From Linderina pennispora (lineage: Eukaryota; Kickxellomycota; Kickxellomycetes; Kickxellales; Kickxellaceae), in NCBI RefSeq assembly GCF_002104995.1, contig NW_024468250.1, positions 620,001 through 684,000 on the forward strand: a stretch of DNA of 64,000 nt, read 5' to 3'. Position numbers and translations under genes: made by a program. Shown one piece after another: positions 40,935-60,625 of this stretch. The stretch's first letter is position 1. The number at the start of each line of letters is the position of its first letter. Below the pieces are notes generated by a model. It ran no database searches. It was not told the origin of the DNA and saw only the letters and a list, made by a program, of their open reading frames with translations.

Positions 40935-41722
40935 ATATTTGTCCAGCCTGGGTCAGAATGAGTGTAGAGCTGAGTCGGCGACAGACGCAGGAGAAAATCT
41001 GACACTGCCGCAGCTGAATCAGCAGCAACAGCAGTAACAACAGCATCAACAGGCAGAGGCAGAGCAGATCAAAGGCAGAGGACAGAGACACAGACACAGA
41101 AGTGGATCTGCCGCAATCCGGATACCAGGTAGGCAGCGAAATGCACAAGTCCTGGCGGTCATGCAGCAGTAGACGATAGAGCCCGTGCGTACACTTTGCT
41201 TGTGTAGATTTGTTGGTAGTCATGCCGAGCGGCCAGCAACAGCAAGGGGGTGCGACGTAAGCAGGGCTGTGTGCAGCACAGAACCAATGACCGTGGCCAA
41301 GCATCCACCGCAGCTGATCAGCGGCGGCGGCAGCAGCAGCACACAGAACCAGTGACGGAACCCGCAGCGAGTCTGTGCCTGGCAGACCTGTTCAGCATAG
41401 GTGCTCGATTTCACATGGATTGAGGGCGGACAATCTCTGGAGGGCAAGGAGAATAGTTTGCTGGCACCTGAAAGTCTCCACGTCAATTAATTTCTCCTGC
41501 CGTAGACTTCCGACACCGAGCTCAGGGGCGCTACGGCTGTGTCGTTCCGGTCTGGCCCGTTCCACTGGCTCCGGCAGCCTTTCCTAAACGAGACATTGCT
41601 GCAACCGGCGGTGCGAGGAGTGTGTGGTTGAGAGATATGATTTGACTGAAGAAAAGGAGACGAAAGAGAAAAATTCACAGGGGGATTAAGATAGTGGGTC
41701 TAAGGGGTGGTGGTGGTGGTGC

Positions 41723-42493
41723 TTAGAGCTGGGGGCCCGCGGCAATGATCTCGGGGGTGGCCTTGTCGGCGTACTCCTTGAAGTTGGACTGGAACAGGCG
41801 CGCCAGCTTGCCGATGGTCTCCTGGAACTCCTCGGGGGAGCCCTCCCAGGCCTGCGACGGGTCCAGCACCTTGGCCGGCACGTTGGGCACCGCAGTCGGG
41901 ATCTGCAGGTTGAACACGCCGTAGTTGGTGTACTCGGCCTGCTCGAGCTCACCCGAGTGGATGGCGTCGATGATGGCGCGCGAGTACTTGAGCGAGATGC
42001 GCTTGCCGATGCCGTAGGCACCGCCGTTCCAGCCGGTGTTGACCAGCCACACGTTGACGTTGTGCTCCTGCATCTTCTGCGCCAGCATCTGCGCGTACTT
42101 GACCGGGTGCCACACCAGGAACGGCTGGCCGAAGCACGCCGAGAACGTGGCCTCGGGCTCGGTCACTCCCTCCTCGGTACCGGCGATCTTGGCGGTGTAG
42201 CCCGAGATGAAGTGGTACATGGCCTGCGCAGGCGTCAGCTTGGCCACCGGCGGCAGCACGCCGAACGCGTCGCAGGTCAGCAGCACAATGTTCTTGGGGT
42301 TGCCGCCCACGCACGGGATCTTGGCGTTCGGGATGTACTCGATCGGGTACGCGCAGCGCGTGTTCTCGGTGATCGTCTTGTCGGTGTAGTCCACCACGCG
42401 CGTGTTGCGGTCGTAGATGACGTTCTCCAGCACCGAGCCGAAGCGGATCGCGTTGAAGATCTCGGGCTCCTTCTCGGCCGACAGGTCGATGGT

Positions 42494-42530
<37 letters not shown>

Positions 42531-43312
42531 CTCTCGGTCCACACGTGCTCGTCGTCGCCGATGAGCGGGCGCTGCGGGTCCGCCGACAGCGTCGTCTTGC
42601 CGGTGCCCGACAGGCCAAAGAACAGCGACACGTCGCCGGCGGGGCCCTCATTGCACGACGAGTGCAGCGACAGCACGCCAGCCTTGGGCATCAGGTAGTG
42701 CATCACCGTGAACACACCCTTCTTCATCTCGCCCGCGTACTCGGTGCCCAGAATCACCATCTGCTTGCGCTCGAAGCTGATCGACACGCTGGTGCTGCTG
42801 GTCATGCCCTTGGTGAACTTGTTGGCCGGGAACTGGCCCGCGTTGACGATGGTGAAGTCGGGCTCGCCAAAGTTCTCCAGCTCCTCGGCGGTCGGCCGGA
42901 TCAGCATGTTGTTCATGAACAGCGCATGGTAGGCGCGCGCGCACACAACACGCACCTTGATGCGGTACTTGGGGTCCCACCCGGCGAATCCGTCAAACAC
43001 GTACAGGCGCTCGCGCGTGTTGAGGTAGTCGGCTGCGCGCTCGTAGTTGATGGCGAACGACTCCTCCGACAGCTTCTTGTTGACCGGGCCCCACCACACG
43101 TCGTCGACCGTGGATGCCTCCTCGACAACACGCTTGTCCTTGGGCGAGCGGCCCGTCTTCTTGCCCGACTCGGCAATCAGCGCGCCCGACGACGAGATGG
43201 CAGTGCCGGGCTCGTAGCGCAGCGCATCCTCGTACAGCTGCGACGGCGACAGGTTGCGGCGGATCTTGCCCTCGTAGTTGATGCCCTCAGTGTTGATATT
43301 TGACGAAGCCAT
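41723..43312 (-). CDS. PCK1: Phosphoenolpyruvate carboxykinase (ATP), copy 1
   Basis: PEPCK converts oxaloacetate and ATP to phosphoenolpyruvate, the committed step of gluconeogenesis in the cytosol. The uninterrupted 529-aa protein has the substrate-binding segment [11 protein letters not shown] (about 55-65) and the P-loop [16 protein letters not shown] (near 245). Also present are the metal/kinase-2 region [20 protein letters not shown], the [15 protein letters not shown] segment, and [20 protein letters not shown] near 430. Length is close to yeast Pck1 (549 aa). The other copy at 58203-59792 differs by a single residue (here VPNVPAKV, there VPSVPAKV). Codon use is extremely GC-biased, typical of a highly expressed gene. 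A TATA box lies about 160 bp upstream. Confidence 0.97.
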
Positions 43313-44142
43313 TGCTGTGTTGGTGGCTGTGTGTAGTAGTAGAAGAAGAAGAGACTGAGGGGAGGTTGTTAATGTACAGGAAAGATATAGGAGAAAACAC
43401 GAAGCTTGGGGGTTGCTTTGATGAAATTGCTGTGATGTTATCGAGACCTGTCACCGATGGCGGCCGCGGGGCCTTTTATACGCAATCCACAAACCCCCAT
43501 ATGGGCACTGTGCTGGGCGGGCTGCTCCAGCCGTAGCTGGCCCGGCGCCAGGGGGCAGCAGCGATCGCACCGAGGACTAAAAAAAAAAGCAAGTCACATT
43601 TACACGGGGCAAGGAGAATAAAAAAAATTCCCGCCTTCTTCCATCCGCGTGGCCACAGCCCCACTAAGGCAAGGGGGCAGCAGCGCCGGTGGGAAATACC
43701 GGAACTGGGCTGCGAGGGCTCGTGGCGAGCCCCTTGTTTTCGTTTGTCCTGGCAAGATGGCCTGTGCTCAGGCCGCCTCTGTCTGCCTCTCCCGCGACTC
43801 GGTGGGGGCCAAAGAGGAAGGCGGATTGCCCAACTCCACGTCGATTCCGTGCTGCCATTCTTTTTGCGTCCTCGTGTCAAACGACAGAGATAAGAATAGC
43901 GGCTAATAGCTGCTGACCCGGGTTTTGTGCAGTGCCCTGTGCCTTTAACTGTGCAGTTGCTTGCAGGCTGGTGGGAAAAAATATCAACAAACACCCTCTG
44001 CGGAGAGAGACAGGGGGCAAGAACGGCAGCACACTGCCCCTCCACACACACTCGGTGGTCCATAAGCCAGGCACTGTCTGGCCCACCCAGCAAGAGACTC
44101 CGGCCTCCACTGCTACGCACACATGCAGCTCTGCCCACCTGA

Positions 44143-44182
<40 letters not shown>

Positions 44183-45929
44183 CATCCTGGCCTTATCTCT
44201 GCCTAAAACAGGAAGGCACAGTCCCAGCATAAAACTAATTCCACCCCTCGCTTGCGTGCTGTGCCTCGCCCACAAAGTGGGGGGAGTGGCCAAGCAATTG
44301 CAAACTAGCATATGAAACACGAGTGACTGGCGTGCATGGCAGGTGCTGGGCTGGGCCTGGGACCCGGAATGTCCCGCTCCCCCTCTGCCCACCACGCTCC
44401 GACACGACCCATGCAAAATAAAACACACCAGACAACAAATATCCTCTCTACATGTCGCAATAGGCAGAAATATCCACGGCTGCATCCACTGCGTCGCGGT
44501 GGAACAGGCTCCAGTCTTCCACCCAGCTGCGATATCGCCAGCCGCGTCTCCTGGATCAGACAAAGATATCCACAGAAGGGAAAAGGCGGTCTGAGCCTAA
44601 AACTCGCCTGTTATCGATGGAGGAGACCGCTTTTCGCATACATCAACCGCCCACGATCCACTGCCAAAGCGGCGGCCCGATCGATAAGGACCCCCGAAAA
44701 AAAAATAAAATAACTCTCACTGCAGCTGCTCCCAGACACCAAAGGCGTCGGTCTGCGTGCAAGGGAGTGGCGCGGGCGACCAGTGCCGCGTCTGCTGCTC
44801 GCCAGCGACCGAGTGGCGGGGCGACTAGCCAGCGCTAACTGCCTGCGTGCGAACCTGTCGCTGAGTCTCGGCAAAACGCCAGGCAGTGTTTCATGTCTCC
44901 CCCTGTTTCCCGCATCATATGCGACAAAGGCGTGCTGCCAAAAACAGCATGCCCTGGCCCGGTGGTGCCCGGGAGGGGAGCAGGACCGGGTCAGAAACTG
45001 CTGCCCTGTGCGCTCGCTGCATTTTTAGCGCATTTGCCGATCGGCTTCTCGATTGATACCAAAAAGGAAAATGTCGGGAGACCTCCCTCTGTTGCTGTGG
45101 TTCCGGGATCACCCTAGTGCACTTTGTGCTTCTACATGTTTCAGGTTGGCGGTGTCGGAAATAGCCCACCCAAAAAACAGTCCCACCTAGTGCCGGAAAA
45201 GTGTGGAGTACACTGGCTGTCGTACGAGGCATGTCCAGAAAACTTGGGGCACGTCACTGCGAACCAAGCATGCCAGAGTCTGAATCAGCGCAAGCAATGA
45301 AAAAGGTGCTGCTCGGTGAGCCCGAGGCACGCCGCTGCTACAGTCAACCCATGTTTTGGCGACAGTGCCAGGATTGCTGTAGGCTGCCTCGTTTTGCACA
45401 ACCCTAGCCGACTAGGCGCACTGCAGGCTGTGACGATCCCTGGTACCAGTCTTATGGTGGTGTCCAGTGTTAAGGGGGGGGCATCTGCTCAGGCGCAGAA
45501 ATGCAGCAGCATGGCGTGCATTCGGACAGAAAGGGTTGCTGCACACAAGGCGTATTGTCGGTGCCATGAATAGCCGTGATATTGTCCTCTTGTTTGTCGT
45601 CGATATACGCAAATGCACTGCTATAGGAACATGACTGTGCAGAATAATACCTGATTATTGCCATATTGATGACTTTATGTGCATGCCATATGCCTTTCTA
45701 CATGGCCTTCGCTACTGCAGAGCAGTAAAGTGCCTTCTGGCTACTCAGTTGGTACCATTTGAGTGCTGTGTGCAATCTGTACCAGGCATATGCCTATACA
45801 ATCTGGTTGCTTATTTAAAATATCACAAGTTCCTCTTGCCACTAAGCCACAGCGCCTGCTTAGGTAGGTCACAGCAACAAGTAGATGAGTGACTCGAGCT
45901 GGTAGCCCACAAACTCTGCTAGCAAAAAC
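43313..45929. other. Upstream region of PCK1 copy 1 within the left arm
   Basis: This 2.6-kb region contains no ORF with coding character, although several frames are open because of GC content. It has a CAG/CTG microsatellite near 44144-44180. GTGGGG boxes near 44275, similar to Mig1-type carbon-repressor sites, would fit a gluconeogenic gene but are unproven. Toward the inner end (near 45855-45885) a minus-strand GTGGCTTAGTGGCAAGAGG resembles a tRNA A box, without the rest of a tRNA. Confidence 0.45.
43473..43480 (-). promoter_or_regulatory. TATA box of PCK1 copy 1
   Basis: TATAAAAG on the minus strand lies 160 bp before the start codon. The identical element precedes copy 2. Confidence 0.65.
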
Positions 45930-46190
45930 ATCATATAAAATTGATATATTTTTATGCTCTTACTATTCTAAAGGAGGGTATTCAAATATTCTAAATTAGT
46001 AAATAATTATTTATTCTTATACTAAATAGGGTTCTTCTCTAAAACCCCTATTAGTATCTTAGATAATTCTAGTTGATTAATTATGACCTAGCCTCTATCC
46101 CAGCAGAAGCACCCTTTTTAGTATCTTTTCTTTATTTATTATTATAGCTATCAATATATTTGGATAATATTAAATAATCTAGACTACATT
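45930..46190 (+). repeat. Start of AT-rich island with a decayed copy of the 396-bp repeat
   Basis: After the left arm ends, composition turns abruptly AT-rich. From about 45973 (GGAGGGTATTCAAA) to about 46122 the sequence follows the 396-bp repeat in the same orientation, including a mutated left hairpin stem and the CTCTATCCCAGCAGAAGCA loop portion, with many C-to-T and G-to-A changes. It is cut off before the intact copy at 46191. Confidence 0.6.
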
Positions 46191-46586
46191 GGAGGCCATT
46201 CACAAATAAGAAAGTTTAAAGAAACTTAATATCTTGTATCAGAATAACCAAGTATTAAATAACAAATCAATTACTAGCAGTTGAAAAATATTTTAAAAAT
46301 CAGAATGTTTAGTGATGGCCAAAAAGATTTTAGCAACTAGATTAACTAATAAATAAAAATATAAGAATAGACACTTCTCCGAAACCCCCTTCGGCATCCT
46401 GAAAAATTTCAGTTGATTTCTCGGGACACAGCCTGTATCTCAGTAGAAGCATATTAATTGTGTATCAACTGAAATTTTTCAGGATGCCGAAGGGGGTTTC
46501 GGAGAAGTTCAAAAAAAACAAAAGAACAAAAAGTTTTACAACTTCTAATTACTTTTTACTTAGTTTAGTGATTGTGAATGACCTCC
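46191..46586 (+). repeat. 396-bp hairpin-bearing terminal repeat, copy 1
   Basis: It starts GGAGGCCATTCACAA and ends with the reverse complement of GGAGGTCATTCACAA, a 15-bp inverted end with one mismatch. Inside are two perfectly complementary 44-nt arms (46373-46416 and 46465-46508) around a 48-nt loop; the arms are GC-rich within an AT-rich element. It differs from copy 2 at two positions. Alone it would look like a MITE. Confidence 0.9.
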
Positions 46587-46607
46587 TAGTGATTGTGAAT
46601 AACCTCC
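46587..46607 (+). repeat. Tandem duplicate of the repeat terminus
   Basis: The last 21 bases of copy 1 (46566-46586, TAGTGATTGTGAATGACCTCC) are followed directly by the same sequence with one change (TGAATAACCTCC). Either copy 1 inserted beside the end of an older element, or the terminus was duplicated. Confidence 0.7.
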
Positions 46608-46613
46608 AAATGC

Positions 46614-46870
46614 TGCCATTTTAAAACATCATGTTCTAGTCATCAAGTCGTTATCATCCTATTTATAACTATTTTTCTAATACTAAGCAATCATATATAT
46701 CATCAATTTTAGAAAGAATCAAATTATGCCATTTTAAAAAATCATAATAAATTCATCAAGTTGTTAGAATCCCATCTGTAATTAATAGATATGCACCAAG
46801 CAATCATATATGTCATCAATTTTAGAAAGCATCAAACTGTGCTAGTTTAAAACATCAAATATACAAGTCA
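46614..46870 (+). repeat. 113-bp tandem repeat, about 2.3 units
   Basis: Units begin at GCCATTTTAAAA (about 46615), about 46728 and about 46841. Each full unit contains GCAATCATATATGTCATCAATTTTAGAAAG or a close variant in its second half. The same words flank the nearby genes: CCATTTTAAAAC at the stop codons of both 79-aa genes and GTCATCAATTTTAGA at the 3' end of the transposase gene. The array therefore seems built from gene-junction sequence. Confidence 0.7.
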
Positions 46871-47475
46871 CATAAGAATATGCTCAATATGGTAAATGTT
46901 CTTAGAAGAGTTGATGATAATATATCTATTGTTCTAAATCCAAGAAATTACTTCTGGTCTATATATCCTATATCTAAGCAATATCACACTTTTAATAAGA
47001 TGTGATTAGTTTACTATTAAGAGATGCATATTAGTTAGATAGACAGAATGTACTCAAATAAGCAAATATTATGATTTGTCTATAAGAAATGTCTGAGGTG
47101 TAGTTTCTATAGGTGAACAAAAGATCAATGCACTAACAACAGTGATTGAAGATGCCATACTAGATGAAATAAGGGTAATAATTATATAAGAATCTAGATC
47201 TTAAGCCTTTAGTAAAGAGTTGCTCATATTATTCTTTATTTCAGTAATGGTTTTGTAGTTACATAATATGCACTCTGTATATTCAGAGGACATTCCTACT
47301 ACTATTTAGATATTCATATTAATAGGAGAGATATACAGCCAACTCATATTTAGATACCAGATGATAGTTCTTTTAGAAAAGCAATTACTCTATAGAAAGG
47401 AATAATACACCAACAAATATATCTAAGAGTTGTAAGTGAGAGCTACAGAATAGTCACAGTTATATAACTACCATT

Positions 47476-47715
47476 TTAAAACATATTATATGCTACCATC
47501 CACTCCATATATCTATGGGAATTTTGACACACTTCATATATATGTTCAACCTTTATCTCATAAAAAGTTCCACTAAGTTGGATCCAATTATGCACTTGGA
47601 ATGCTAAGCCAGCACTCATGTTAAAGTCATGGATAAGCACTAAAGTTAGCATGTCTCTTTCTTCAGTACTCAAATCAGCTATATGTTTCTTAAGGAAGTT
47701 ATGGAATGATGGCAT
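47476..47715 (-). CDS. Small 79-aa transposon protein A
   Basis: This intact 79-aa ORF starts MPSFHNFLKKHIADLSTEER. It aligns end to end with the 79-aa ORF at 49215-49454. Shared features are FxxF near the start, LSxEER-like residues, FNMS, a central WI, H.(Y/F)(E/D)VC and a C-terminal ME.MVA...F. It looks helical and has no signal peptide or known domain. It lies 226 bp downstream of the transposase gene, on the same strand. The function is unknown; DNA binding or transposase regulation is possible but not shown by the sequence. Confidence 0.7.
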   Translation of the reverse strand: MPSFHNFLKKHIADLSTEERDMLTLVLIHDFNMSAGLAFQVHNWIQLSGTFYEIKVEHIYEVCQNSHRYMEWMVAYNMF

Positions 47716-47941
47716 TTTCTAAAATTGATAATGAACTAGAGTTGTCTATCTTATCTTACCACCCATGAACAATCAATTATAAGAATTACAAGAGAAGGAG
47801 TAGAATGTGCATTAGATAATAAAGTTTTAAAAGTTCTAACTATCTTTTACTAAATTTAGCAGTTATGAATACCCTCTATATTGAATAATATTGATAAGAA
47901 CTAGCTATTTTAAAATCAAGTAGCTAGCATCATATCTGTTA

Positions 47942-49171
47942 TTACCCCATATCTACAAAGCAGTCATAGTTGTCATCAATTTTAGATTGTAGAAATCTAT
48001 TTTGTAGTTCAACCATTGATGCTTCAAACTCAACCTTTTGAGGTAAAGTATATGTTGGTTCCATTTGTGTTGATCTTTCATTGTGTGATTCAGGATAGTC
48101 AAAGTTTGTCATAACCCAGAGAGTATGATGATGTTCTACTTGCACATCACTGTTTGCTAGTATTTTCTTCATATTATATAATACACAGCACAGTTTCATT
48201 TGCACATTGTAAACATTCTTATTCTTTACTCGAACAATCTCCTTATTTGACAACCTTTTGAATGTTGTTCCTAGTTCTCCAAATGTGTTTTCTACCATTG
48301 AATGGAATGATCCAAGATGGGAATTGTACTCTACTTCTGCTTCTAGTAAGTTTACCCCTCTCTGCTTTCTAATTGGCAAACAAAAGTTATGCATTCCAAA
48401 GTCCTCCTGCTCTTCTTCCTCTGTCATCTCTTGAAGAACACTCTGTGGATAGCCACCATCAAGCACAATACAATCTATAGGGGATATCCTCTTTAATAAT
48501 CCCATGTTTTTAATCATTCTTGAATCTGGATTATCTCTACAGTCTTCTGTTGGTGAAACAAGTAGAACCATTCCATTTATATCAATGCAAACTTGTGTAC
48601 GATATCCTGATTTCTTCAACTTGAAGGAATAAAGTCCTGGTTTGTATGCTCCATTGTGTAGTGCTCTTGAGTCATGGCCATCTAACATTAGTGTTACATG
48701 TTTAAACCCATGAGGATTCTGCATCTTTGCTGCAAGTAGTCGTAGCTCTGGAGTAGAAAACATTGTTTGCAGATAGAATGTTAGCTTCTTATTCAAATCT
48801 TGCATTTCAGAAATGTAGAACATATTATGAATAACTTGATAGCTGCTTCTTGGAAGGAATCTTTCCATTTCATTGATTGACAATCCTTCTACAAGTTGGT
48901 ATAAGATAAGCAATCCTTTTTCTATACTTCTGTAAGGACATGGATAATGAGTGCAGCCAAACAGAACATTCAGAAAGAAGAAAACAGGAATCATCCCTAG
49001 ATGTTTAAGAAGTGTATCTTTTATAAGTTTGATTTCTCTTACTTCACGAACTTCACTTCTGTGATATTTTGTATGCTTAAGAACTACCCAGTCATCATTC
49101 AGAAATTTCCACTTATTTGTGTAGAGCTTATGATATTCCTTTTCTCTGAGTTCTTGTAATTGATGATTCAT
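47942..49171 (-). CDS. DDE-type transposase (DDE_Tnp_4/Harbinger-like)
   Basis: The intact 409-aa protein shows a DDE endonuclease layout. The first acidic site is in VTLMLDGHDSRA (about residue 170), with YSFKLKKSGYRTQVCIDINGM following. The second is in DCIVLDGGYPQS (about 235), and the Glu is in HSMVENTFGELGTTFKRL (about 300). The N-terminal half (PYRSIEKGLLILYQLVEGLS) resembles the helical region before the catalytic core in HARBI1/DDE_Tnp_4 proteins. It should cut and join the element ends bearing GGAGG. It is divergent from the 79-aa gene at 49215, 43 bp apart. Family placement is by pattern only; IS4/IS5-related alternatives are possible. Confidence 0.78.
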   Translation of the reverse strand: MNHQLQELREKEYHKLYTNKWKFLNDDWVVLKHTKYHRSEVREVREIKLIKDTLLKHLGMIPVFFFLNVLFGCTHYPCPYRSIEKGLLILYQLVEGLSINEMERFLPRSSYQVIHNMFYISEMQDLNKKLTFYLQTMFSTPELRLLAAKMQNPHGFKHVTLMLDGHDSRALHNGAYKPGLYSFKLKKSGYRTQVCIDINGMVLLVSPTEDCRDNPDSRMIKNMGLLKRISPIDCIVLDGGYPQSVLQEMTEEEEQEDFGMHNFCLPIRKQRGVNLLEAEVEYNSHLGSFHSMVENTFGELGTTFKRLSNKEIVRVKNKNVYNVQMKLCCVLYNMKKILANSDVQVEHHHTLWVMTNFDYPESHNERSTQMEPTYTLPQKVEFEASMVELQNRFLQSKIDDNYDCFVDMG

Positions 49172-49214
49172 CTGTGCGATGTACTAATAAATTTAAAAGT
49201 TGTCATTTATTATA

Positions 49215-49454
49215 ATGGGCCCATTCTATAAGTTCTTCAACACTCAACTTTCTGAGCTAGATGAGGAAGAGAGAGAAAAGCTAGTCCAACTACTTAGCAG
49301 AAATTTCAATATGAGCAGAAAATTAACAGTGTATATCAGAGCATGGATTAAGAATGTTTCAGAAGATAGGGGTGTTAGTATTAAGCATGTGTTTGATGTA
49401 TGCAACTACAGTTGTGCAGATATGGAAGTAATGGTTGCCAACTGCCCATTTTAA
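49215..49454 (+). CDS. Small 79-aa transposon protein B, paralog of protein A
   Basis: The first ATG is at 49215, giving MGPFYKFFNTQLSELDEEER and exactly 79 aa, like its partner at 47476-47715. The body keeps FNMS, WI, KHVFDVC and MEVMVA. It lies on the opposite strand from the three other genes of the element, between the transposase start and the 547-aa gene end. Its stop codon is 2 bp from the stop of the convergent gene. The function is unknown. Confidence 0.7.
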   Translation: MGPFYKFFNTQLSELDEEEREKLVQLLSRNFNMSRKLTVYIRAWIKNVSEDRGVSIKHVFDVCNYSCADMEVMVANCPF

Positions 49455-49456
49455 AA

Positions 49457-51100
49457 CTAGATCCTCTCAGTATGGATAATACGATTATGAATTCTAGTTA
49501 CTTTAAGCACCACTTCTTGATTTGGTTGGCCAATAACAGAAGCAATACATTCACCAAATGGACTACTTGCCAGTACTTTGATAAGTGTATGAGTGCTGCT
49601 AACTATTTCATTGTGAATCATAGAAATATCTAGATAGTAGAAAGGTAATCCTCTAAAAGTATATAGGAAGTAATAACTAACTAAGAACTCATCACCAACA
49701 TGAAGTATGTTGTAAGCAACTTTATATCTAGCTGGCTTGAGATCAGTATTTTCTCTTAAATATGTAGGTTCTAGATCATCAAGTTCAATATTGCTAATAT
49801 CTGCAAGAAGGTCATCTATTCCTAAACCATCAGTATTATCACTAACAATTGAGAGAGTTGAAAGCCTAACTTTCTCTCTTGCTTGCTGAGCTGTTAACCA
49901 ATCAATATGTATTCCACGATAGTTAATAAGTCCCATTTCAGCAAATGTATGTTGTTGTCTTTCTCTTGAAGCAACTGGCCAGAAGGAGTTTCTCTGACTA
50001 GGAACAATAGTGATGTTTGTGATATCTCTTCTCAGAACAACTTCAGATTCAAGAGGACCACTACTAGTAGCATATGTAAGAAGAACAGTTGGGTGTCCAT
50101 TGAATGTAAGATTAGAAACAACAGTCATCATATCCTCATTCTTTTTCAACTTTTTAGCTATTCCTTGTTTCTTCTTAGTTGTTTTATTGAACCAATGGCA
50201 GTAACCAAGAGAATGTTCTTTATGGAAGTAAATACACAATGTATGTTTGTTATGAATCTGATCAACTAGTGCCATCCATTGCTTTTCATAAGATGTTGCA
50301 AATGTCCTACAGTTATGAAGAAACTCAAGAGTATTAACAATTAAGTTTGTGTTCCATTCTACTTCCTTCAACTCAGGAGAGTGAACAGTAAGCTCAAGTC
50401 TCATTAATCCTTCATTCCTACACGCAACAAGTGTTTCACCAAACTGTTGAGAAGTTGGCATTACTAGCTCTGATAGCTTAGAAGTAAGTTGATTGCGAAC
50501 TTCACCACTTTCTAAGAGTTGAACAAATTTATTATACAACTTGTTCCTTATTCTTATCTCATCTTCATCAGTAAACCAGCTAATACAGTTTGCTCCAACT
50601 TTATTTTCATCATCAAGAATATCTTTGCTACTGATTCCATTATCAAGAAGAAATTCCTTAACAATAGCTCTAGAAGAAATATTTAGACAATCCATGGTAA
50701 TATCATAGTTTTGAAGAAATACATGTTCTTGATGCATCCTAAGAAAGATATCAGTTAGTGCAGGATCAGCTATTGCAACATTTGGAGCAGATACTTTATA
50801 CACAGAGACGTTACCATTTGTCACACTTGTGCTGCATCTTATATATTTAAAACTATAACCATCACCAAATACTCTATGCAATCTATCAAAAGGAGTAATA
50901 TTGTGAAGTTGATCCATTAGAGTATATGAGTCAGGAATCTCAACAACACATGAATCCATAAAGATATCAGATTGCTGAACAAATCCTTGCTGTTCAATGC
51001 CATTACTAGTATATCTTGCATCAGATATATCAGGCATATTATCTCTATTCTTCAACTCAAGTCCCAAAAGGGAGTTAAGATATACTCTTAAGGAGGCCAT
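49457..51100 (-). CDS. 547-aa element-encoded protein, weakly replication-initiator-like
   Basis: This large intact ORF starts MASLRVYLNSLLGLE. The first three codons lie inside the end of repeat copy 2 (51092 onward), so copy 2 probably supplies its promoter; the next in-frame Met is MPDISDAR at residue 22. I see no certain domain. The stretch NYDITMDCLNISSRAIVKEF (about 130), then IRNKLYNKFVQLLESGEVR (about 185) and EGLMRLELTVHSPELKE (about 230), recalls the D..., K.YNK...E..., G..RLE.. pattern of replication-initiator proteins such as phage CRI/gpII relatives. There is no clear HUH motif. A His/Cys cluster (HNKHTLCIYFHKEHSLGYCH, about 280-300) might bind metal. The C-terminal third is mixed. 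I infer a DNA-handling role, with low confidence. Confidence 0.6.
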   Translation of the reverse strand: MASLRVYLNSLLGLELKNRDNMPDISDARYTSNGIEQQGFVQQSDIFMDSCVVEIPDSYTLMDQLHNITPFDRLHRVFGDGYSFKYIRCSTSVTNGNVSVYKVSAPNVAIADPALTDIFLRMHQEHVFLQNYDITMDCLNISSRAIVKEFLLDNGISSKDILDDENKVGANCISWFTDEDEIRIRNKLYNKFVQLLESGEVRNQLTSKLSELVMPTSQQFGETLVACRNEGLMRLELTVHSPELKEVEWNTNLIVNTLEFLHNCRTFATSYEKQWMALVDQIHNKHTLCIYFHKEHSLGYCHWFNKTTKKKQGIAKKLKKNEDMMTVVSNLTFNGHPTVLLTYATSSGPLESEVVLRRDITNITIVPSQRNSFWPVASRERQQHTFAEMGLINYRGIHIDWLTAQQAREKVRLSTLSIVSDNTDGLGIDDLLADISNIELDDLEPTYLRENTDLKPARYKVAYNILHVGDEFLVSYYFLYTFRGLPFYYLDISMIHNEIVSSTHTLIKVLASSPFGECIASVIGQPNQEVVLKVTRIHNRIIHTERI

Positions 51101-51487
51101 TCACAAATAAGAAAGTTTAAAGAAACTTAATATCTTGTATCAGAATAACCAAGTATTAAATAACAAATCAATTACTAGCAGTTGAAAAATATTTTAAAAA
51201 TCAGAATGTTTAGTGATGGCCAAAAAGATTTTAGCAACTAGATTAACTAATAAATAAAAATATAAGAATAGACACTTCTCCGAAACCCCCTTTGGCATCC
51301 TGAAAAATTTCAGTTGATTTCTCGGGACGCAGCCTGTATCTCAGTAGAAGCATATTAATTGTGTATCAACTGAAATTTTTCAGGATGCCGAAGGGGGTTT
51401 CGGAGAAGTTCAAAAAAAACAAAAGAACAAAAAGTTTTACAACTTCTAATTACTTTTTACTTAGTTTAGTGATTGTGAATGACCTCC
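51092..51487 (+). repeat. 396-bp hairpin-bearing terminal repeat, copy 2
   Basis: It differs from copy 1 at only two bases (one, in the left stem arm, gives a single stem mismatch). Stem arms are at 51274-51317 and 51366-51409. It lies directly upstream of the 547-aa gene and contributes its start codon. The right flank ATT matches the left flank of copy 1. Confidence 0.9.
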
Positions 51488-52300
51488 ATTATTTATAGTT
51501 TATATTAGTAATTGGTATAAATATATTCTTATTTGATTATTCTTTTATAAGATTCTTAAGCATTTTAAATTTTCTATCTTTAAATAACTACTATAGTAAG
51601 AATACAACATTATTAGCTAGGATATCTAGAGTTGGAAAACAATAAAAAAAAAATAATAAAAATAATAGCTTAAATTGTATAAGCTACTACTAAGATATAG
51701 GCTGGGTTATAAGAAATTAACTAAAATTTTTAGGATGCTACTAGGGGTTTCATAAAAGTGCCTATTTTAGTATTTATATAAACTAGTAAATAATTTATAT
51801 ATTATTAATTAGTTATTCTAATAAAAAATGATTAGTTCCTTTAAACTTTCTTATCTATGAATAACCTCTAGTACTAAGTATTATATACCCTATTAGAAGT
51901 TAGTCTGTAATTCTAAGTTTTATAATAATATTTTATTTTATTTAAGTTTTTCTATTCTGATACTAAATATAGTGCTTCTCTAAAACCCCCATCAGTATCC
52001 TAAAAAATTTTAGTTAATATATAATTAGTATGCTTTTACTGAGATAGAGGCTAAGCCCTACCCAATTAACTGAAATTTTTAGGATACTAAAAGGTTTTTA
52101 GAGAAGCACCATATTTGGTATCTTTTAGTTCTTTAATATTTTTGTTGTTATAATATTTATATTCATTAATAAATATTCTTGATTTTTAAAATATATATTT
52201 GAATTAGTAATTGATTTCTATACTACTAATTGATTATTCTTTTATAAGATATTTAAGTAGTTAGAACTTTCTTATATTTAAATAACTACTATTAGCTATA
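51488..52300 (-). repeat. Cluster of decayed 396-bp repeat copies
   Basis: At least three degenerate copies lie in the opposite orientation to the intact ones. One is a tail fragment ending near 51590, one runs about 51600-51888 (ending with the complement of GAGGTTATTCATAGATAAG), and one about 51890-52290 still has both hairpin arms recognisable. Substitutions are mostly C-to-T/G-to-A, making them far more AT-rich. Confidence 0.6.
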
Positions 52301-53643: not shown

Positions 53644-54366
53644 CTATGAGGTGTGATTCTTCAGCTTTTTTAGATATTCAGTTAGCTTCTCGACTTCAGA
53701 AGCAGGGGACGGGTGTTCATAGCCATCTGGGTATACTCTGTCGATATTCCACTTCTTGCTGTACGCGTTGGAAAAGTCGATCAATTTGACTTCGTCTCCG
53801 TTCACCATGATATTCTGTGGCCCCAAGTCGCCATGGACTATCCCTTGATCGTGAAGGATTTTGAGCGCTGCAAAGCATCTGCTCTTCCCTACATCCGATA
53901 GGCTGTCTACTATCGGAAGCTCCTTTCCGTCGAAATATTCCGAGACTAGGCCATTCGCTGTGACTCCGAGGTACTCCTGTATATATGAGTGCCTAGGAAG
54001 GAATTTCATTCCAATCAACGATTCAGCGATGAGAGGCAGCACATTGTCTTCGTCGCGAGCATATTTCACAAAGACATCCCTCCCCTGGTATTCAGCCCTG
54101 AAGGTCAGAGTGCCAGAAAAGCAGCGCAGAAGCTTCTTGTTCGTCAAGTCTTCTTCTTTAATGATGTGCATGTGGATATTTTCGAAACCAGCCTTGGTCG
54201 GCTGCGGTATGCTGTGTATGCCCTCAGTCAGTCTCATCGGCCAGCGAAACGTGTATTCTCCTTTAGGATACCTGAGGTAAATGAAGCTCGTGATATACAT
54301 CTTCAGCATCACAAGCCGGCTGCCAAAATCAACCAGTCTGCCATCCGACTCGATAATGGTCCTCAT
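53644..54366 (-). CDS. Kinase-like protein (atypical protein kinase fold)
   Basis: The 240-aa ORF starts MRTIIESDGRLVDFG. It has kinase landmarks: VFVKYA (candidate ATP-binding Lys, about residue 97), a Glu-containing helix (IAESLIGMKF), IVHGDLGPQNIMV (catalytic loop in which HGDL replaces HRDL, about 175-187) and VKLIDFSNA (metal-binding Asp, DFS instead of DFG). The product lacks most of a C-lobe, ending about 45 residues after DFS, as in small Bud32/RIO-like or aminoglycoside-phosphotransferase-like kinases. It lies inside the AT-rich island but is itself less AT-rich than its surroundings, so it may be cargo or a recent arrival. The substrate is unknown. Confidence 0.65.
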   Translation of the reverse strand: MRTIIESDGRLVDFGSRLVMLKMYITSFIYLRYPKGEYTFRWPMRLTEGIHSIPQPTKAGFENIHMHIIKEEDLTNKKLLRCFSGTLTFRAEYQGRDVFVKYARDEDNVLPLIAESLIGMKFLPRHSYIQEYLGVTANGLVSEYFDGKELPIVDSLSDVGKSRCFAALKILHDQGIVHGDLGPQNIMVNGDEVKLIDFSNAYSKKWNIDRVYPDGYEHPSPASEVEKLTEYLKKLKNHTS

Positions 54367-55575
54367 TGTGTTAGCTATGAGAGCGCAGGTCCAGTTGGGG
54401 GGAGGGAACTACTAAATGTTTGGCTATCTAGCGAACAGAGAATAAAGGTGTGTTGTAGACACGATTGCGACTTATACAACTAATAAGCATAAAGAAAAAC
54501 AAAAACAAAAACCACATACTGGTACAGACTGTTGTGCTTGTATAGTGGGGAACTGTCGGGTTGCGTAAGCACACGTGATCCTAATTAAGGGACTGAGAAT
54601 AATATTAACACATAATTGAAAGTCTTGCGCTTGTGATGTGTGTTTACCTCTATATAAGACAGATGCATTTGTTTGTACTTTGGTTAGTATAACTGGTCAG
54701 CTGGCTTTAATAAAGTAGATATGATAACCAAATATTGCAGCACCATAGTAGGGCTTTGGTCATAGTACTAAATTTATATAAAATTAGAAGTATTAATAAC
54801 TAGCATTGATATTATATCTATAGATCCTTAATATAATTACTACTAAAACAAGTATAGTAAGATATTTACTTTAAGCTATTAGTAGATAACTTACTATAAC
54901 TTCTGAATAATACTAGTAACAGTAAGGACAAAATCCTTAGTTAGCTTAAAGAACTATATAAATAAACACATGCTTTCAAGCTATCCTATATACCAATAAA
55001 TGTTCTATTTATAGTAATATAGTATAGAGGTTATTCATAGATAAGAAAGTTTAAATAAACAAATAACCTTTTATTAGAATAGATATTTAACAAATTATAA
55101 ATCATTTACTAGTATTGAATAAGTATTATATAACTAGATTATTCATTAACACCTAAAATAATAATAGCAACTATATTAACAAATAAACAAAAATACTAAA
55201 ATGGGTACTTTTATAAACCCCTATCAGTATCCTAAAAATATCAGTTTGGTTTCTTTATAACTTAGCCTATATCTCAGTAGAAGAATATTAATTGTTTATT
55301 AACTGAAAATTTTTCAGGATACTAGTAGGGGTTTTATAGAAATACTATGGTCACAAAGGAACAATATGTTTTAGATGTTTTAAATATCTTTCTACCTAGT
55401 TCAGTAACTATAAAGAACCTCTTATATAGTGGCCAGATAAGCAGTGGTGCTTTACCTTCCAAAAAAAAAAAATTAGGCCAAGCTGCAGTCCTTATGTAAA
55501 AGGTGTGCCTATATTCCTAGTGATAAGCATATTAAGCCTAGAAAGAGCATAGGTATATGATAATTTTACAAGAGG
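54367..55575. other. AT-rich non-coding end of the island
   Basis: This stretch of 1.2 kb has no coding ORF. It includes one decayed repeat copy (listed separately) and a short A-run near 55461. It ends where the right inverted arm starts. Confidence 0.45.
55027..55428 (+). repeat. Decayed full-length copy of the 396-bp repeat
   Basis: It runs from GAGGTTATTCATAGATAAGAAAG to a terminus ending GAACCTC and is about 400 bp long, in the same orientation as the intact copies. The hairpin arms and the TATCTCAGTAGAAGAATATTAATTG loop portion are recognisable, but many stem C and G positions have become T and A. Confidence 0.7.
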
Positions 55576-58034
55576 TTTTTGCTAGCAGGGTTTGTGGGCT
55601 ACCAGCTCAAGTCACTCATATACTTGTTGCTGTGAGCTACCTAAGCAGGCGTTGTAGCTTAGTGGTAAGAGGAACTTGTGATATTTTAAATAAGTAATCA
55701 GACTGTATGGGCATATGTCTGGTACAGATTGCGCCCAGCACTCAAATGGTACCAACTGAGTAGCCAGAAGGCACTTTACTGCTCTGTGGTAGCAAAGGCC
55801 ATGTAGCAGGGGATAAGGCATGCACATAAAGTTATCGATATGTCAATAATTAGGTGTTATTCTGCACAGCCATGTTCCTACAGCAGTGCATTTGCGTATA
55901 TCGACGACAAACAAGAGGACAATATCACGGCTATTCATGGCACCAACAATACGCCTTGTGTGCAGCAACCCTTCCTGTCCAAATGCAGGCCATGCTGCTG
56001 CATTTCTGTGCCTGAGCAGATGCCCCCCCCCCTTAACACTGGACACCACCAAAGACTGGTGCCAGGGATCGTCACAACCTGCAGTGCGCCTAGTCGGCTA
56101 GGGTTGTGTAAAACGAGGCAGCCCACAGCAATCCTGGCACTGTTGCCAAAACATGGGTTGATTGTAGCAGCGGTGTGCCTCGGGCTCACCGAGCAGCACC
56201 TTTTTCATTGCTTGCGCTGATTCCGACTTTGCCATGCTTGGCTCGCAGTGACGTGCCCCAAGTTTTCTGGACATGCCTCGTACGACAGCTAGTGTACTCC
56301 ACACTTCTCTGGCACTAGGTGGGACTGTTTTTTGGGTGGTTTATTTCCGACGCCGCCAACCTGAAACATGTAGAAGCACAAAGCACACTAGGGTGATCCC
56401 GGAACCATAGCAGCAGAGGGAGGTCTCCCGACATTTTCCTTTTTGGTATCAATCGAGAAGCCGATCGGCAAATGCGCTAAAAATGCAGCGAGCGCACAGG
56501 GCAGCAGTTTCTGACCCGGTCCTGCTCCCCTCCCGGGCACCACCGGGCCAGGGCATGCTGTTTTTGGCAGCTCGCCTTTGTCGCATATGATGCGGGAAAC
56601 AGGGGGAGACATGAAACACTGCCTGGCGTTTTGCCGAGACTCAGCGACAGGTTCGCACGCAGGCAATTAGCGCTGGCTAGTCGCCCCGCCACTCGGTCGC
56701 TGGCGAGCAGCAGACGCGGCACCGGTCGCCCGCGCCACTCCCTTGCACGCAGACCGACGCCTTTGGTGTCTGGGAGCAACTGCAGTGAGAGTTATTTTAT
56801 TTTTTTTCGGGGGTCCTTATCGATCGGGCTGCCGCTTTGGCAGTGGATCGTGGGTGGTTGATGTATGCGAAAAGCGGTCTCCTCCATCGATAACAGGCGA
56901 GTTTTAGGCTCAGACCACCTTTTCCCTTCTGTGGATATCTTTGTCTGATCCAGGAGACGCGGCTGGCGATATCGCAGCTGGGTGGAAGACTGGAGCCTGT
57001 TCCACCGCGATGCAGTGGATGCAGCCGTGGATATTTCTGCCTATTGCGACATGTAGAGAGGATATTTGTTGTCTGGTGTGTTTTATTTTGCATGGGTCGT
57101 GTCGGAGCGTGGTGGGCAGAGGGGGAGCGGGACATTCCGGGTCCCAGGCCCAGCCCAGTGCCTGCCATGCACGCCAGTCACTCGTGTTTCATATGCTAAT
57201 TTGCAATTGCTTGGCCACTCCCCCCCACTTTGTGGGCGAGGCACAGCACGCAAGCGAGGGGTGGAATTAGTTTTATGCTGGGACTGTGCCTTCCTGTTTT
57301 AGGCAGAGATAAGGCCAGGATGCGCTGCTGCTGCTGCTGCTGCTGCTACTGCTACTGCTGCTGCTGCTGCTTCAGGTGGGCAGAGCTGCATGTGTGCGTA
57401 GCAGTGGAAGCCGGAGTCTCTTGCTGGGTGGGCCAGACAGTGCCTGGTTCATGGAGCACCGGGTGTGTGTGGAGGGGCAGTGTGCTGCCGTTCTTGCCCC
57501 CTGTCTCTCTCCGCAGAGGGTGTTTGTTGATATTTTTTCCCACCAGCCTGCAAGCAACTGCACAGTTAAAGGCACAGGGCACTGCACAAAACCCGGGTCA
57601 GCAGCTATTAGCCGCTATTCTTATCTCTGTCGTTTGACACGAGGACGCAAAAAGAATGGCAGCACGGAATCGACGTGGAGTTGGGCAATCCGCCTTCCTC
57701 TTTGGCCCCCACCGAATTGCGGGAGAGGCAGACAGAGGCGGCCTGAGCACAGGCCATCTTGCCAGGACAAACGAAAACAAGGGGCTCGCCACGAGCCCTC
57801 GCAGCCCAGTTCCGGTATTTCCCACCAGCGCTGCTGCCCCCTTGCCTTAGTGGGGCTGTGGCCACGCGGATGGAAGAAGGCGGGAATTTTTTTTATTCTC
57901 CTTGCCCCGTGTAAATGTGACTTGCTTTTTTTTTTTAGTTCTCGGTGCGATCGCTGCTGCCCCCTGGCGCCGGGCCAGCTACGGCTGGAGCAGCCTGCCC
58001 AGCACAGTGCCCATATGGGGGTTTGTGGATTGCG

Positions 58035-58042
58035 TATAAAAG
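58035..58042 (+). promoter_or_regulatory. TATA box of PCK1 copy 2
   Basis: TATAAAAG lies 161 bp before the start codon, identical in sequence and position to the element before copy 1. Confidence 0.65.
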
Positions 58043-58202
58043 GCCCCGCGGCCGCCATCGGTGACAGGTCTCGATAACATCACAGCAATTTCATCAAAGC
58101 AACCCCCAAGCTTCGTGTTTTCTCCTATATCTTTCCTGTACATTAACAACCTCCCCTCAGTCTCTTCTTCTTCTACTACTACACACAGCCACCAACACAG
58201 CA

Positions 58203-58988
58203 ATGGCTTCGTCAAATATTAACACTGAGGGCATCAACTACGAGGGCAAGATCCGCCGCAACCTGTCGCCGTCGCAGCTGTACGAGGATGCGCTGCGCTA
58301 CGAGCCCGGCACTGCCATCTCGTCGTCGGGCGCGCTGATTGCCGAGTCGGGCAAGAAGACGGGCCGCTCGCCCAAGGACAAGCGTGTTGTCGAGGAGGCA
58401 TCCACGGTCGACGACGTGTGGTGGGGCCCGGTCAACAAGAAGCTGTCGGAGGAGTCGTTCGCCATCAACTACGAGCGCGCAGCCGACTACCTCAACACGC
58501 GCGAGCGCCTGTACGTGTTTGACGGATTCGCCGGGTGGGACCCCAAGTACCGCATCAAGGTGCGTGTTGTGTGCGCGCGCGCCTACCATGCGCTGTTCAT
58601 GAACAACATGCTGATCCGGCCGACCGCCGAGGAGCTGGAGAACTTTGGCGAGCCCGACTTCACCATCGTCAACGCGGGCCAGTTCCCGGCCAACAAGTTC
58701 ACCAAGGGCATGACCAGCAGCACCAGCGTGTCGATCAGCTTCGAGCGCAAGCAGATGGTGATTCTGGGCACCGAGTACGCGGGCGAGATGAAGAAGGGTG
58801 TGTTCACGGTGATGCACTACCTGATGCCCAAGGCTGGCGTGCTGTCGCTGCACTCGTCGTGCAATGAGGGCCCCGCTGGCGACGTGTCGCTGTTCTTTGG
58901 CCTGTCGGGCACCGGCAAGACGACGCTGTCGGCGGACCCGCAGCGCCCGCTGATCGGCGACGACGAGCACGTGTGGACCGAGAGCGGT

Positions 58989-59021
<33 letters not shown>

Positions 59022-59792
59022 ACCATCGACCTGTCGGCCGAGAAGGAGCCCGAGATCTTCAACGCGATCCGCTTCGGCTCGGTGCTGGAGAACGTCATCT
59101 ACGACCGCAACACGCGCGTGGTGGACTACACCGACAAGACGATCACCGAGAACACGCGCTGCGCGTACCCGATCGAGTACATCCCGAACGCCAAGATCCC
59201 GTGCGTGGGCGGCAACCCCAAGAACATTGTGCTGCTGACCTGCGACGCGTTCGGCGTGCTGCCGCCGGTGGCCAAGCTGACGCCTGCGCAGGCCATGTAC
59301 CACTTCATCTCGGGCTACACCGCCAAGATCGCCGGTACCGAGGAGGGAGTGACCGAGCCCGAGGCCACGTTCTCGGCGTGCTTCGGCCAGCCGTTCCTGG
59401 TGTGGCACCCGGTCAAGTACGCGCAGATGCTGGCGCAGAAGATGCAGGAGCACAACGTCAACGTGTGGCTGGTCAACACCGGCTGGAACGGCGGTGCCTA
59501 CGGCATCGGCAAGCGCATCTCGCTCAAGTACTCGCGTGCCATCATCGACGCCATCCACTCGGGTGAGCTCGAGCAGGCCGAGTACACCAACTACGGCGTG
59601 TTCAACCTGCAGATCCCGACTGCGGTGCCCAGCGTGCCCGCCAAGGTGCTGGACCCGTCGCAGGCCTGGGAGGGCTCCCCCGAGGAGTTCCAGGAGACCA
59701 TCGGCAAGCTGGCGCGCCTGTTCCAGTCCAACTTCAAGGAGTACGCCGACAAGGCCACCCCCGAGATCATTGCCGCGGGCCCCCAGCTCTAA
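58203..59792 (+). CDS. PCK1: Phosphoenolpyruvate carboxykinase (ATP), copy 2
   Basis: This intact 529-aa duplicate of the gene at 41723-43312 differs by one residue (Ser for Asn in VPSVPAKV, near residue 475). All catalytic motifs are kept ([40 protein letters not shown]). A few silent changes exist (for example near 58872, 58947, 58983, 59539). Because the promoter is duplicated as well, both copies should be expressed under the same gluconeogenic control, giving a dosage increase. Near-identity of the coding part, beside indels in the flanks, suggests purifying selection or ongoing gene conversion. Confidence 0.97.
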
Positions 59793-60271
59793 GCACCACC
59801 ACCACCACCCCTTAGACCCACTATCTTAATCCCCCTGTGAATTTTTCTCTTTCGTCTCCTTTTCTTCAGTCAAATCATATCTCTCAACCACACACTCCTC
59901 GCACCGCCGGTTGCAGCAATGTCTCGTTTAGGAAAGGCTGCCGGAGCCAGTGGAACGGGCCAGACCGGAACCGCACAGCCGTAGCGCCCCTGAGCTCGGT
60001 GTCGGAAGTCTACGGCAGGAGAAATTAACTGACGCGGAGACTTTCAGGTGCCAGCAAACTATTCTCCTTGCCCTCCAGAGATTGTCCGCCCTCGATCCAT
60101 GTGAAATGGAGCACCTATGCTGAATAGGTCTGCCAAGCACGACTCGCTGCAGGTTCCGTCACTGGTTCTGTGTGCTGCTGCTGCTGCTGCTGCTGCTGAT
60201 CAGCTGCGGTGGATGCCTGGCCACAGTCATTGGTTCTGTGCTGCACACAGCCCTGCTTACGTCGCACCCCC

Positions 60272-60323
<52 letters not shown>

Positions 60324-60625
60324 CGCTCGGCATGACTACCAACAAATCCACACAAGCAAAGTGTGAGCACAGGCTCTATCGTCTACTGCTGCATGACCGC
60401 CAGGACTTGTGCATTTCGCTGCCTACCTGGTATCCCATTGCGGCAGATCCACTTCTGTGTCTGTGTCTCTGCCTCTGCCTCTGCCTCTGCCTCTGCCCTG
60501 CCTTTGATGCTGCTGTTGTTACTACTGCTGTTGCTGCTGATCAGCTGCGGCAGTGTCAGATTTTCTCCTGCGTCTGTCGCCGACTCAGCTCTACACTCAT
60601 TCTGATCCCAGGCTGGACAAATATT

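Follow-up and report, generated by a model that had tools for sequence, protein, structure and literature searches.

A probable DNA transposon with long terminal direct repeats, present as three families in the fungus Linderina pennispora

The element and its genes

The window analysed here is a stretch of 64,000 nt from Linderina pennispora (GCF_002104995.1, contig NW_024468250.1, positions 620,001-684,000 of the forward strand), and all positions are numbered within it. At 46191-51487 it holds an element in which a core is placed between two 396-bp long terminal direct repeats (LTDRs) in the same orientation (Table 1). The LTDRs show 2 differences (99.5% identity), and the core between them (46587-51091, 4,505 bp) encodes a DDE transposase, a 547-amino-acid (aa) protein and two 79-aa open reading frames (ORFs), with intergenic gaps of 43 bp and 2 bp as calculated from the ORF coordinates. 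Both outer flanks read ATT; the inner flanks of the two LTDRs are TAG and TAA. A preliminary description of the locus had reported the same direct repeats, core of ~4.5 kb, ORFs, gaps and ATT flanks, and our reading agrees with it on each of these.

Table 1. Features of the element and of its surroundings (window numbering)
Feature	Position	Strand	Remark
Target-site duplication, left copy (ATT)	46188..46190	.	
Left LTDR, family A	46191..46586	+	termini GGAGGCCATTCAC...GTGAATGACCTCC
Hairpin of left LTDR	46373..46508	.	perfect 45-bp arms 46373-46417 / 46464-46508, loop 46 nt
21-bp copy of LTDR 3' end	46587..46607	+	immediately after left LTDR
Tandem repeats of ~113 bp, subterminal	46607..46870	.	
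Stretch matching family C	46854..47825	-	opposite orientation, 75-76%
Second 79-aa ORF	47476..47715	-	inside the C-derived stretch
DDE transposase	47942..49171	-	409 aa, DDE_Tnp_4
79-aa protein common to families A, B, C	49215..49454	+	
547-aa orphan protein	49457..51100	-	first three codons in right LTDR terminus
Right LTDR	51092..51487	+	
Hairpin of right LTDR	51274..51409	.	45-bp arms, one mismatch
Target-site duplication, right copy (ATT)	51488..51490	.	
LTDR relic, decayed	51768..52292	-	outside the intact element
LTDR relic, decayed	55010..55424	+	outside the intact element

We surveyed copies in one genome, that of L. pennispora (26 Mb). It contains many further copies besides the window element, and three diverged families (A, B and C), all built as LTDR-core-LTDR, with LTDRs of 396-462 bp and units of 4.1-5.3 kb. 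The 21-bp repeat behind the left LTDR is present in family A and was not found at the left junctions that were read in B and C. Core positions 21-284, with the ~113-bp tandem repeats, are kept in family B at 91-94%. The stretch at 46854-47825 is missing from the family B units read and is derived from a C-type element; the second 79-aa ORF within it has 62% aa identity to family C and 33% to the neighbouring 79-aa ORF.

The preliminary description had proposed profile searches of all four proteins, and these found a domain in one of them. The transposase matches Pfam DDE_Tnp_4 (E 3.3e-13; 50 bits, cut-off 24.8), as do 12 of 14 aligned relatives; it has an RNase-H-like fold and a catalytic triad read as D164, D238 and E294. 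DDE relatives also occur in Coemansia species, which are likewise Kickxellales. Nowhere in its 409 residues is there a [CD]xxH, and so the Kolobok C/DxxH motif is absent. The 547-aa protein gave no Pfam match in family A (E<=1) or in B and C (E<=10), and neither did the two 79-aa ORFs of A (E<=1). The structure model of the 547-aa protein is too poor to judge whether it includes a His-Me finger homing endonuclease. The genes common to the families evolve under purifying selection: omega between families is 0.11-0.15 for the transposase, 0.18-0.34 for the 547-aa protein and 0.23-0.32 for the 79-aa protein, the values that involve C being rough because dS (1.2-1.9) is near saturation.

The first ATG of the 547-aa ORF (51098-51100) lies within the right LTDR, and in all three families it is the LTDR that supplies this codon. 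The LTDR holds no ATG-started ORF of at least 50 aa. Taken alone, it fits the description of a MITE: short, non-coding, ended by TIRs and accompanied by a target duplication at free copies.

Insertion sites and repeat pairs

Identical 3-bp outer flanks were found in 24 of the 32 full units whose outer ends could both be read (A, 2/3; B, 8/14; C, 14/15; two clustered A units, L012 and L013, were left out of the scoring). Flanks taken from different copies matched by chance at 0.060 per pair, and the maximum in 20,000 re-pairings was 10 matches in 32. Matching flanks were missing from 8 of the 32, 6 of them B; some of the non-matching units, L024 and L028 among them, are part of clusters that are nested or rearranged. 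For nested insertions, empty sites could be read in sibling elements: two insertions of C into B, one of B into A and one of a solo B LTDR into A, all four matching exactly at the junction and over the letters that were compared. A further site, C in A, has one substitution ~10 bp from the junction.

Of the 39 right LTDRs in the C family, 19 are preceded by an LTDR that starts 3,675-3,691 bp upstream, and the spacing is exactly the same in 13 of these 19 units; the other 20 lack an intact LTDR at this distance and belong to truncated or interrupted copies. Two LTDRs of this family, including that of C133, are shared between units, forming dimers, both near contig ends. One copy, L024, is a hybrid. 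Free or truncated LTDRs are numerous in the genome, and 7 of 10 free LTDRs examined have identical 3-bp flanks.

Within the LTDR, hairpin arms are perfect over 44-61 bp in 23 of the 26 LTDRs read. The loop between them occurs in both orientations, and in B_C1 and in B_C135 its inversion is the sole difference. Substitutions between the left and right LTDR of a unit, not counting the loop, are absent from 7 of 8 B units and from C178, number 1-2 in three A units, and reach 10 in B_C157 and 20 in C_C196. LTDRs of different units diverge by 2.7% (B-B), 20% (A-B), 43.5% (A-C) and 48% (B-C), and no side-specific (left or right) signal was present in A or B LTDRs. Since the pair is nearly identical although LTDRs diverge between families, the two LTDRs of one unit evolve in concert.

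How the element may move

At the level of sequence, we find unit boundaries, a 3-bp duplication, empty sites, three families of one plan and purifying selection on the genes that they share, together with concerted pairs, both loop orientations, dimers and free LTDRs with duplications. We conclude that the element is very probably a DNA transposon of the LTDR-INT-LTDR kind, autonomous and active until recently, which upholds the earlier suggestion that it was recently active and is mobilised together with its terminal direct repeats as one unit. In the model that we propose, the DDE transposase would recognise the GGAGG/CCTCC termini and presumably cut at the outermost LTDR ends, and the whole unit would be inserted, duplicating 3 bp of the target. 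With both ends present, an LTDR might also move alone in the manner of a MITE; alternatively, a solo LTDR may be left by recombination between two LTDRs, as for solo LTRs. LTDR-LTDR recombination (dimers, circles, gene conversion) may keep the pairs alike; the hybrid copy and the dimers fit such homogenisation and do not prove it. The many near-identical copies make the upkeep of alike direct repeats in a DNA transposon testable, and the fast-flipping loop of the hairpin offers a convenient marker of the recombination behind it. To judge from the start codon, transcription of the 547-aa gene may be driven by a promoter in the right LTDR. The product of that gene and the 79-aa protein could be accessory transposition or repeat-maintenance proteins.

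Perhaps free LTDRs and near-identical pairs arise from LTDR recombination only, with no transposition of the LTDR? This alternative, which touches one step of the model and not the whole, has a substantial chance of being correct, if somewhat under even. The dimers show LTDR recombination, and solos keep 3-bp duplications, as predicted by either route. However, both termini are present in the LTDR, and for the animal transposon KolobokP LTDR excision is reported as strongly suggested (PMC9587614).

It is improbable that the LTDR alone is the mobile unit and that LTDR-INT-LTDR is a by-product, formed either by tandem LTDR-INT arrays or by circles that recombine into resident solo LTDRs and inherit an old target duplication. 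The shared-LTDR dimers, the hybrid and the abundance of free or truncated LTDRs agree with it, and single copies could have arisen by circle integration into solo LTDRs. However, the empty sites of nested C units lie in different elements and the 3-bp duplications there differ, and 13 of 19 C units have exactly the same spacing, which is expected for transposition of the whole unit.

Less probable still is an ordinary TIR transposon core flanked by chance by two independent MITE insertions, despite the MITE-like LTDRs with their own TIRs and the target duplications of free-standing ones. Inner junctions are fixed across copies within a family, and those of the window element have no target duplication. 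Hence, the copies represent one mobile unit rather than a core between two stray MITEs. The plan also recurs in three diverged families, each with its own LTDR sequence; the pairs evolve in concert; and the LTDR provides the first ATG of the 547-aa ORF. The preliminary description had named two outcomes that would speak against its reading, core genes without the repeats in related genomes and independent target duplications of the repeats: all three gene families in this genome have the repeats, and no such duplications were seen at inner junctions.

An LTR retrotransposon that has acquired the gene of a DDE transposase, an origin proposed for Coe1 of beet (PMC2426827), would account for LTR-like direct repeats, solo copies and near-identical pairs, but its probability is negligible: a Pfam scan of the four core proteins found no reverse transcriptase, the repeats end in GGAGG..CCTCC with inverted termini and a hairpin and not in TG..CA, and the target duplication is 3 bp.

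Within the LTDR-INT-LTDR transposon that we favour, a further step can be imagined, although we think it unlikely: the orphan 547-aa protein (or the transposase) would act on the conserved LTDR hairpin, flip the loop and drive LTDR-LTDR recombination by which one LTDR is copied onto the other. LTR-like pairs would then have arisen independently in a second DNA-transposon superfamily, with the pair actively maintained by the element, a DNA-only counterpart of the reverse transcription that keeps two LTRs identical.

Comparison with known systems

Bacterial composite transposons have flanks in direct repeat that are themselves transposon-like units. The direct-repeat flanks of the Linderina element are likewise transposon-like, but its transposase is encoded in the core rather than in the flanks, which have been conserved by descent across three families. 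The earlier analogy with bacterial IS-flanked composites, which are also described in PMC9587614, is not borne out: as the flanking units carry no transposase, they are not an IS pair of the bacterial style that trapped a core. The direct repeats instead belong to the element itself: they are conserved and homogenised, and they contain the ATG with which the 547-aa ORF begins.

We take the DDE_Tnp_4 match to stand for the PHIS superfamily. That superfamily comprises PIF/Harbinger, ISL2EU, Spy, Pangu and Nuwa (PMC4482050). The likeness to it extends to a DDE_Tnp_4-type transposase accompanied by a second ORF in elements of ~4 kb, to termini starting with GG, as in several groups, and to a 3-bp duplication, as in most (PMC4482050). 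In contrast, the second protein here has no Pfam domain, so neither Myb/SANT nor YqaJ was found, and the target duplications follow neither the TWA of PIF/Harbinger (1/24) nor the ANT of Pangu (7/24) as a rule. The term "direct repeat" does not occur in the main text of that paper.

Our literature search found the same architecture for only one other transposon lineage, an unrelated one from animals: KolobokP, of the Kolobok superfamily (Kojima and Bao 2022, PMC9587614), which has the LTDR-INT-LTDR plan and was presented as unlike any other DNA transposon for its long terminal direct repeats. The preliminary description had set the element apart from Harbinger/ISL2EU-type transposons by its MITE-like terminal direct repeats and did not name the KolobokP precedent, whose transposase belongs to another superfamily. 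Both systems have LTDRs with their own short TIRs, solo LTDRs, multimers with a shared LTDR, and an internal DDE transposase plus an accessory protein. Sizes are comparable: LTDRs of ~450 or ~660 bp in KolobokP versus 396-462 bp here, autonomous units of 4.0-4.7 kb in oyster versus 4.1-5.3 kb, and solo LTDR target duplications of 3-4 or 4-5 bp versus 3 bp. The two differ in host (animals versus a fungus), in transposase (Kolobok with C/DxxH versus DDE_Tnp_4 without that motif) and, as far as the Pfam searches tell, in partner proteins (a His-Me finger homing endonuclease versus the 547-aa orphan and the 79-aa protein). The Linderina LTDR also holds a hairpin with an invertible loop and a start codon; the words hairpin, loop, start codon and promoter do not occur in the main text on KolobokP (PMC9587614).

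The Linderina element is thus a new, apparently convergent variant within a rare kind: a fungal transposon that joins the KolobokP plan to an unrelated transposase (DDE_Tnp_4) and an orphan 547-aa protein. Should that protein prove to be something other than a homing endonuclease, the plan does not depend on such an enzyme. The recurrence of the plan with an unrelated transposase in a fungus suggests that it is favoured in itself.

Organization and coding capacity

The unit in the window encloses a 4,505-bp core between long terminal direct repeats (LTDRs) that are 99.5% identical. Both LTDRs start with GGAGGCCATTCAC and end with GTGAATGACCTCC; hence, each has inverted termini of its own. ATT stands at both outer flanks of the unit, with TAG and TAA at the inner flanks. 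The preliminary description had placed a DDE transposase, a 547-aa protein and two 79-aa proteins in the core, and our ORF scan of the window agreed. The transposon is located in an AT-rich spacer separating the arms of an inverted duplication.

Features of the window containing the element
Feature	Coordinates	Strand	Details
Inverted duplication (5.09 kb), first arm	40935-45965		96.4% between arms
PEPCK_ATP ORF, first arm	41723-43312	-	529 aa, intact
Left LTDR	46191-46586		396 bp, direct orientation to right LTDR
Stretch with second 79-aa ORF	46854-47825		
Right LTDR	51092-51487		396 bp, direct orientation to left LTDR
Decayed LTDR	51768-52292	-	C>T/G>A 47 vs T>C/A>G 9, relative to a B LTDR
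AT-rich ORF	53644-54366	-	240 aa, weak match to protein-kinase/RIO-like
Decayed LTDR	55010-55424	+	C>T/G>A 43 vs T>C/A>G 20, relative to a B LTDR
Inverted duplication, second arm	55539-60624		
PEPCK_ATP ORF, second arm	58203-59792	+	529 aa, intact

Searching the core against its own genome revealed three families: A, with 5 full-length copies including the window's (98-100% identity); B, about 88-92% identical to the window core and without core 285-1347; and C, at 67-76%. Genome matches numbered at least 79 for the 547-aa protein and at least 104 for the DDE protein. B units measure ~4.25 kb; their LTDRs are 397 bp long, except for 396 bp in one. For C, one unit (C178) was read completely; it is 4,140 bp long, and its 462-bp LTDRs are identical to each other and 43-48% different from those of A and B, loop excluded. 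Gene order in C is as in A: DDE (-), 79 aa (+) and 544 aa (-), the last ORF starting inside the right LTDR.

The 409-aa DDE ORF matched DDE_Tnp_4 in a Pfam domain scan (E 3.3e-13), and we read its catalytic triad as D164, D238 and E294. A structure model, for which the input was 14 aligned sequences (one a fragment), had a pLDDT of 84.5; its top structural matches were DDE transposases and integrases. Coemansia, Mortierella and relatives of Mucor contain relatives of this protein. Many relatives (metagenomes, Mortierella, Mucor, others) carry a chromodomain; unlike them, the window element has none.

We compared intact ORFs from the window (A), the extracted locus L039 and C178. Between families, omega values were as follows: DDE protein, 0.108-0.150; 547-aa protein, 0.175-0.340; shared 79-aa protein, 0.227-0.317. 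Those involving C are rough because dS with C is 1.2-1.9. Domain searches with the 547-aa protein gave no match, and a search of 5.8 billion proteins, of word-limited sensitivity, returned relatives in three clusters, all from Linderina pennispora. The LTDR terminus (ATGGCCTCC in A and B; ATGACCCCC in C) supplies the first ATG of the 547-aa ORF in every family. Translation may instead begin at the next ATG, codon 22, which would fit a 526-aa database entry of family A; codons 1-30 alone, A versus B, gave an omega of 0.8 on few changes, with no clear selection signal.

The second 79-aa ORF of A is 62% identical to the 79-aa protein of C and 33% to A's own. The stretch containing it aligns with C in the reverse direction and has no counterpart in B. 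On these grounds, we take the stretch to be a fragment acquired from a C-type element. The ORF is still open in the window.

Flanking duplications, empty sites and free LTDRs

We examined the outer 3 bp of 32 full units (LTDR-core-LTDR) with both LTDR ends read, including nest-interrupted units. Of 19 C units, the test left out C157:152095 (right end not reached), C1:3297224 and the two C133 units (flanks unavailable or cut by the contig end). Also left out were C24:720707 and C90, whose ends we were unable to pair; L012 and L013 of family A, which lie in rearranged clusters; and B units truncated or cut by contig ends, such as L047. Flanks were identical in 24 of the 32 (A 2/3, B 8/14, C 14/15). 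When the left flank of one unit was set against the right flank of another, the match rate was 0.060, and 20,000 re-pairings produced at most 10 matches. Unmatched were C79 in A; L019, L023, L024, L026, L028 and L040b in B; and C157:1114690 in C. Target duplications were diverse (ATT, ACT, AGA, AAA, CGT, TCA and others); therefore, no TWA or ANT rule applies to the element.

Empty sites were found for the C units of C178 and C196, nested in B cores whose other copies are uninterrupted there, and for B unit L021, which lies inside an A core; the corresponding string is unbroken in the window. A further empty site is that of a solo B LTDR lodged within an A core. For C unit C212:213987, likewise in an A core, the window by eye runs on across the site, with one substitution ~10 bp off.

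Exact patterns across the genome gave, for A/B, 127 LTDR 5' ends, with inner junctions numbering 39 on the right and 41 on the left; the corresponding counts for C were 94, 39 and 28. Ends beyond the junction counts are free or truncated LTDRs, their number approximate because the patterns are exact. LTDRs adjoining a core (e.g., C129:475, C129:5315, C135:939, C144:7600, C2:373711 and C201:774599) were left out of the free count. Identical 3-bp flanks bounded 7 of 10 free A/B LTDRs examined, and two of the seven (C146 and C77) have mutated terminal bases as read; C101:96906, C168:581569 and C212:221456 were unmatched. In the two decayed window LTDRs, the excess of C>T/G>A suggests deamination-type decay.

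LTDR hairpins and probable recombination

Hairpin arms were perfect over 44-61 bp in 23 of 26 LTDRs; A_C112_R and B_C157_L have one mismatch each, and B_C157_R has 36-bp arms. The window's left LTDR folds with an energy 12 standard deviations beyond shuffles. The loop, 46 nt in A and B and ~91 nt in C, occurs in both orientations: it is inverted in 1/6 A and 5/16 B LTDRs and opposite between C178 and C196. Since inversion is the sole difference between the two LTDRs of B_C1 and of B_C135, loop inversion can outpace substitution. In the A unit of C201, the left LTDR (L011:1096-1500) has intact arms around an unrelated 54-nt loop.

We then compared LTDR pairs, loop excluded, in all 13 extracted units. 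Left and right LTDRs showed no substitutions in 7/8 B units and in C178; three A units had 1, 1 and 2, B_C157 had 10 and C_C196 had 20. Mean differences between units were 1.1% (A-A), 2.7% (B-B) and 5.9% (C-C, two units only), and across families 20% (A-B), 43.5% (A-C) and 48% (B-C). Same-side and opposite-side substitutions were alike (A 4.0 vs 3.7, B 9.5 vs 9.5). Within A, pairs were not clearly closer to one another than to LTDRs of other A units. From the near-identical pairs, the large differences between families and the like same- and opposite-side values, we infer that the two ends have been homogenised while the families diverged.

At L024:556-5051, an A-type core end joins a B LTDR, beyond which come a B core and another B LTDR; this pair is B_C157, 10 substitutions apart. 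It is a hybrid at an LTDR, of the sort expected from LTDR recombination. C133 reads LTDR-core-LTDR-core-LTDR, the middle LTDR common to both units and the junctions read; C1:3300902 is a second shared LTDR, judged by spacing.

Relationship to known transposons

The transposase is most likely PHIS-like (PIF/Harbinger and relatives), a placement by DDE_Tnp_4 match. Of the traits described within PHIS (PMC4482050), the Linderina element follows neither the TWA nor the ANT target rule and has no Myb/SANT partner. Our searches of PMC, covering listings and passages of individual papers, turned up no terminal direct repeats described for a PHIS element or for Linderina.

KolobokP is described from Kolobok elements in seven animal phyla; it has a homing endonuclease and an LTDR plan with solos and multimers, and its authors call it unlike any other DNA transposon (PMC9587614). 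The Linderina element has the same plan, with both solos and multimers. However, it lacks the Kolobok transposase motif and its transposase matches DDE_Tnp_4, which rules out membership. Because the plan is common to both and the transposases differ, we conclude that the Linderina element works like KolobokP without belonging to it.
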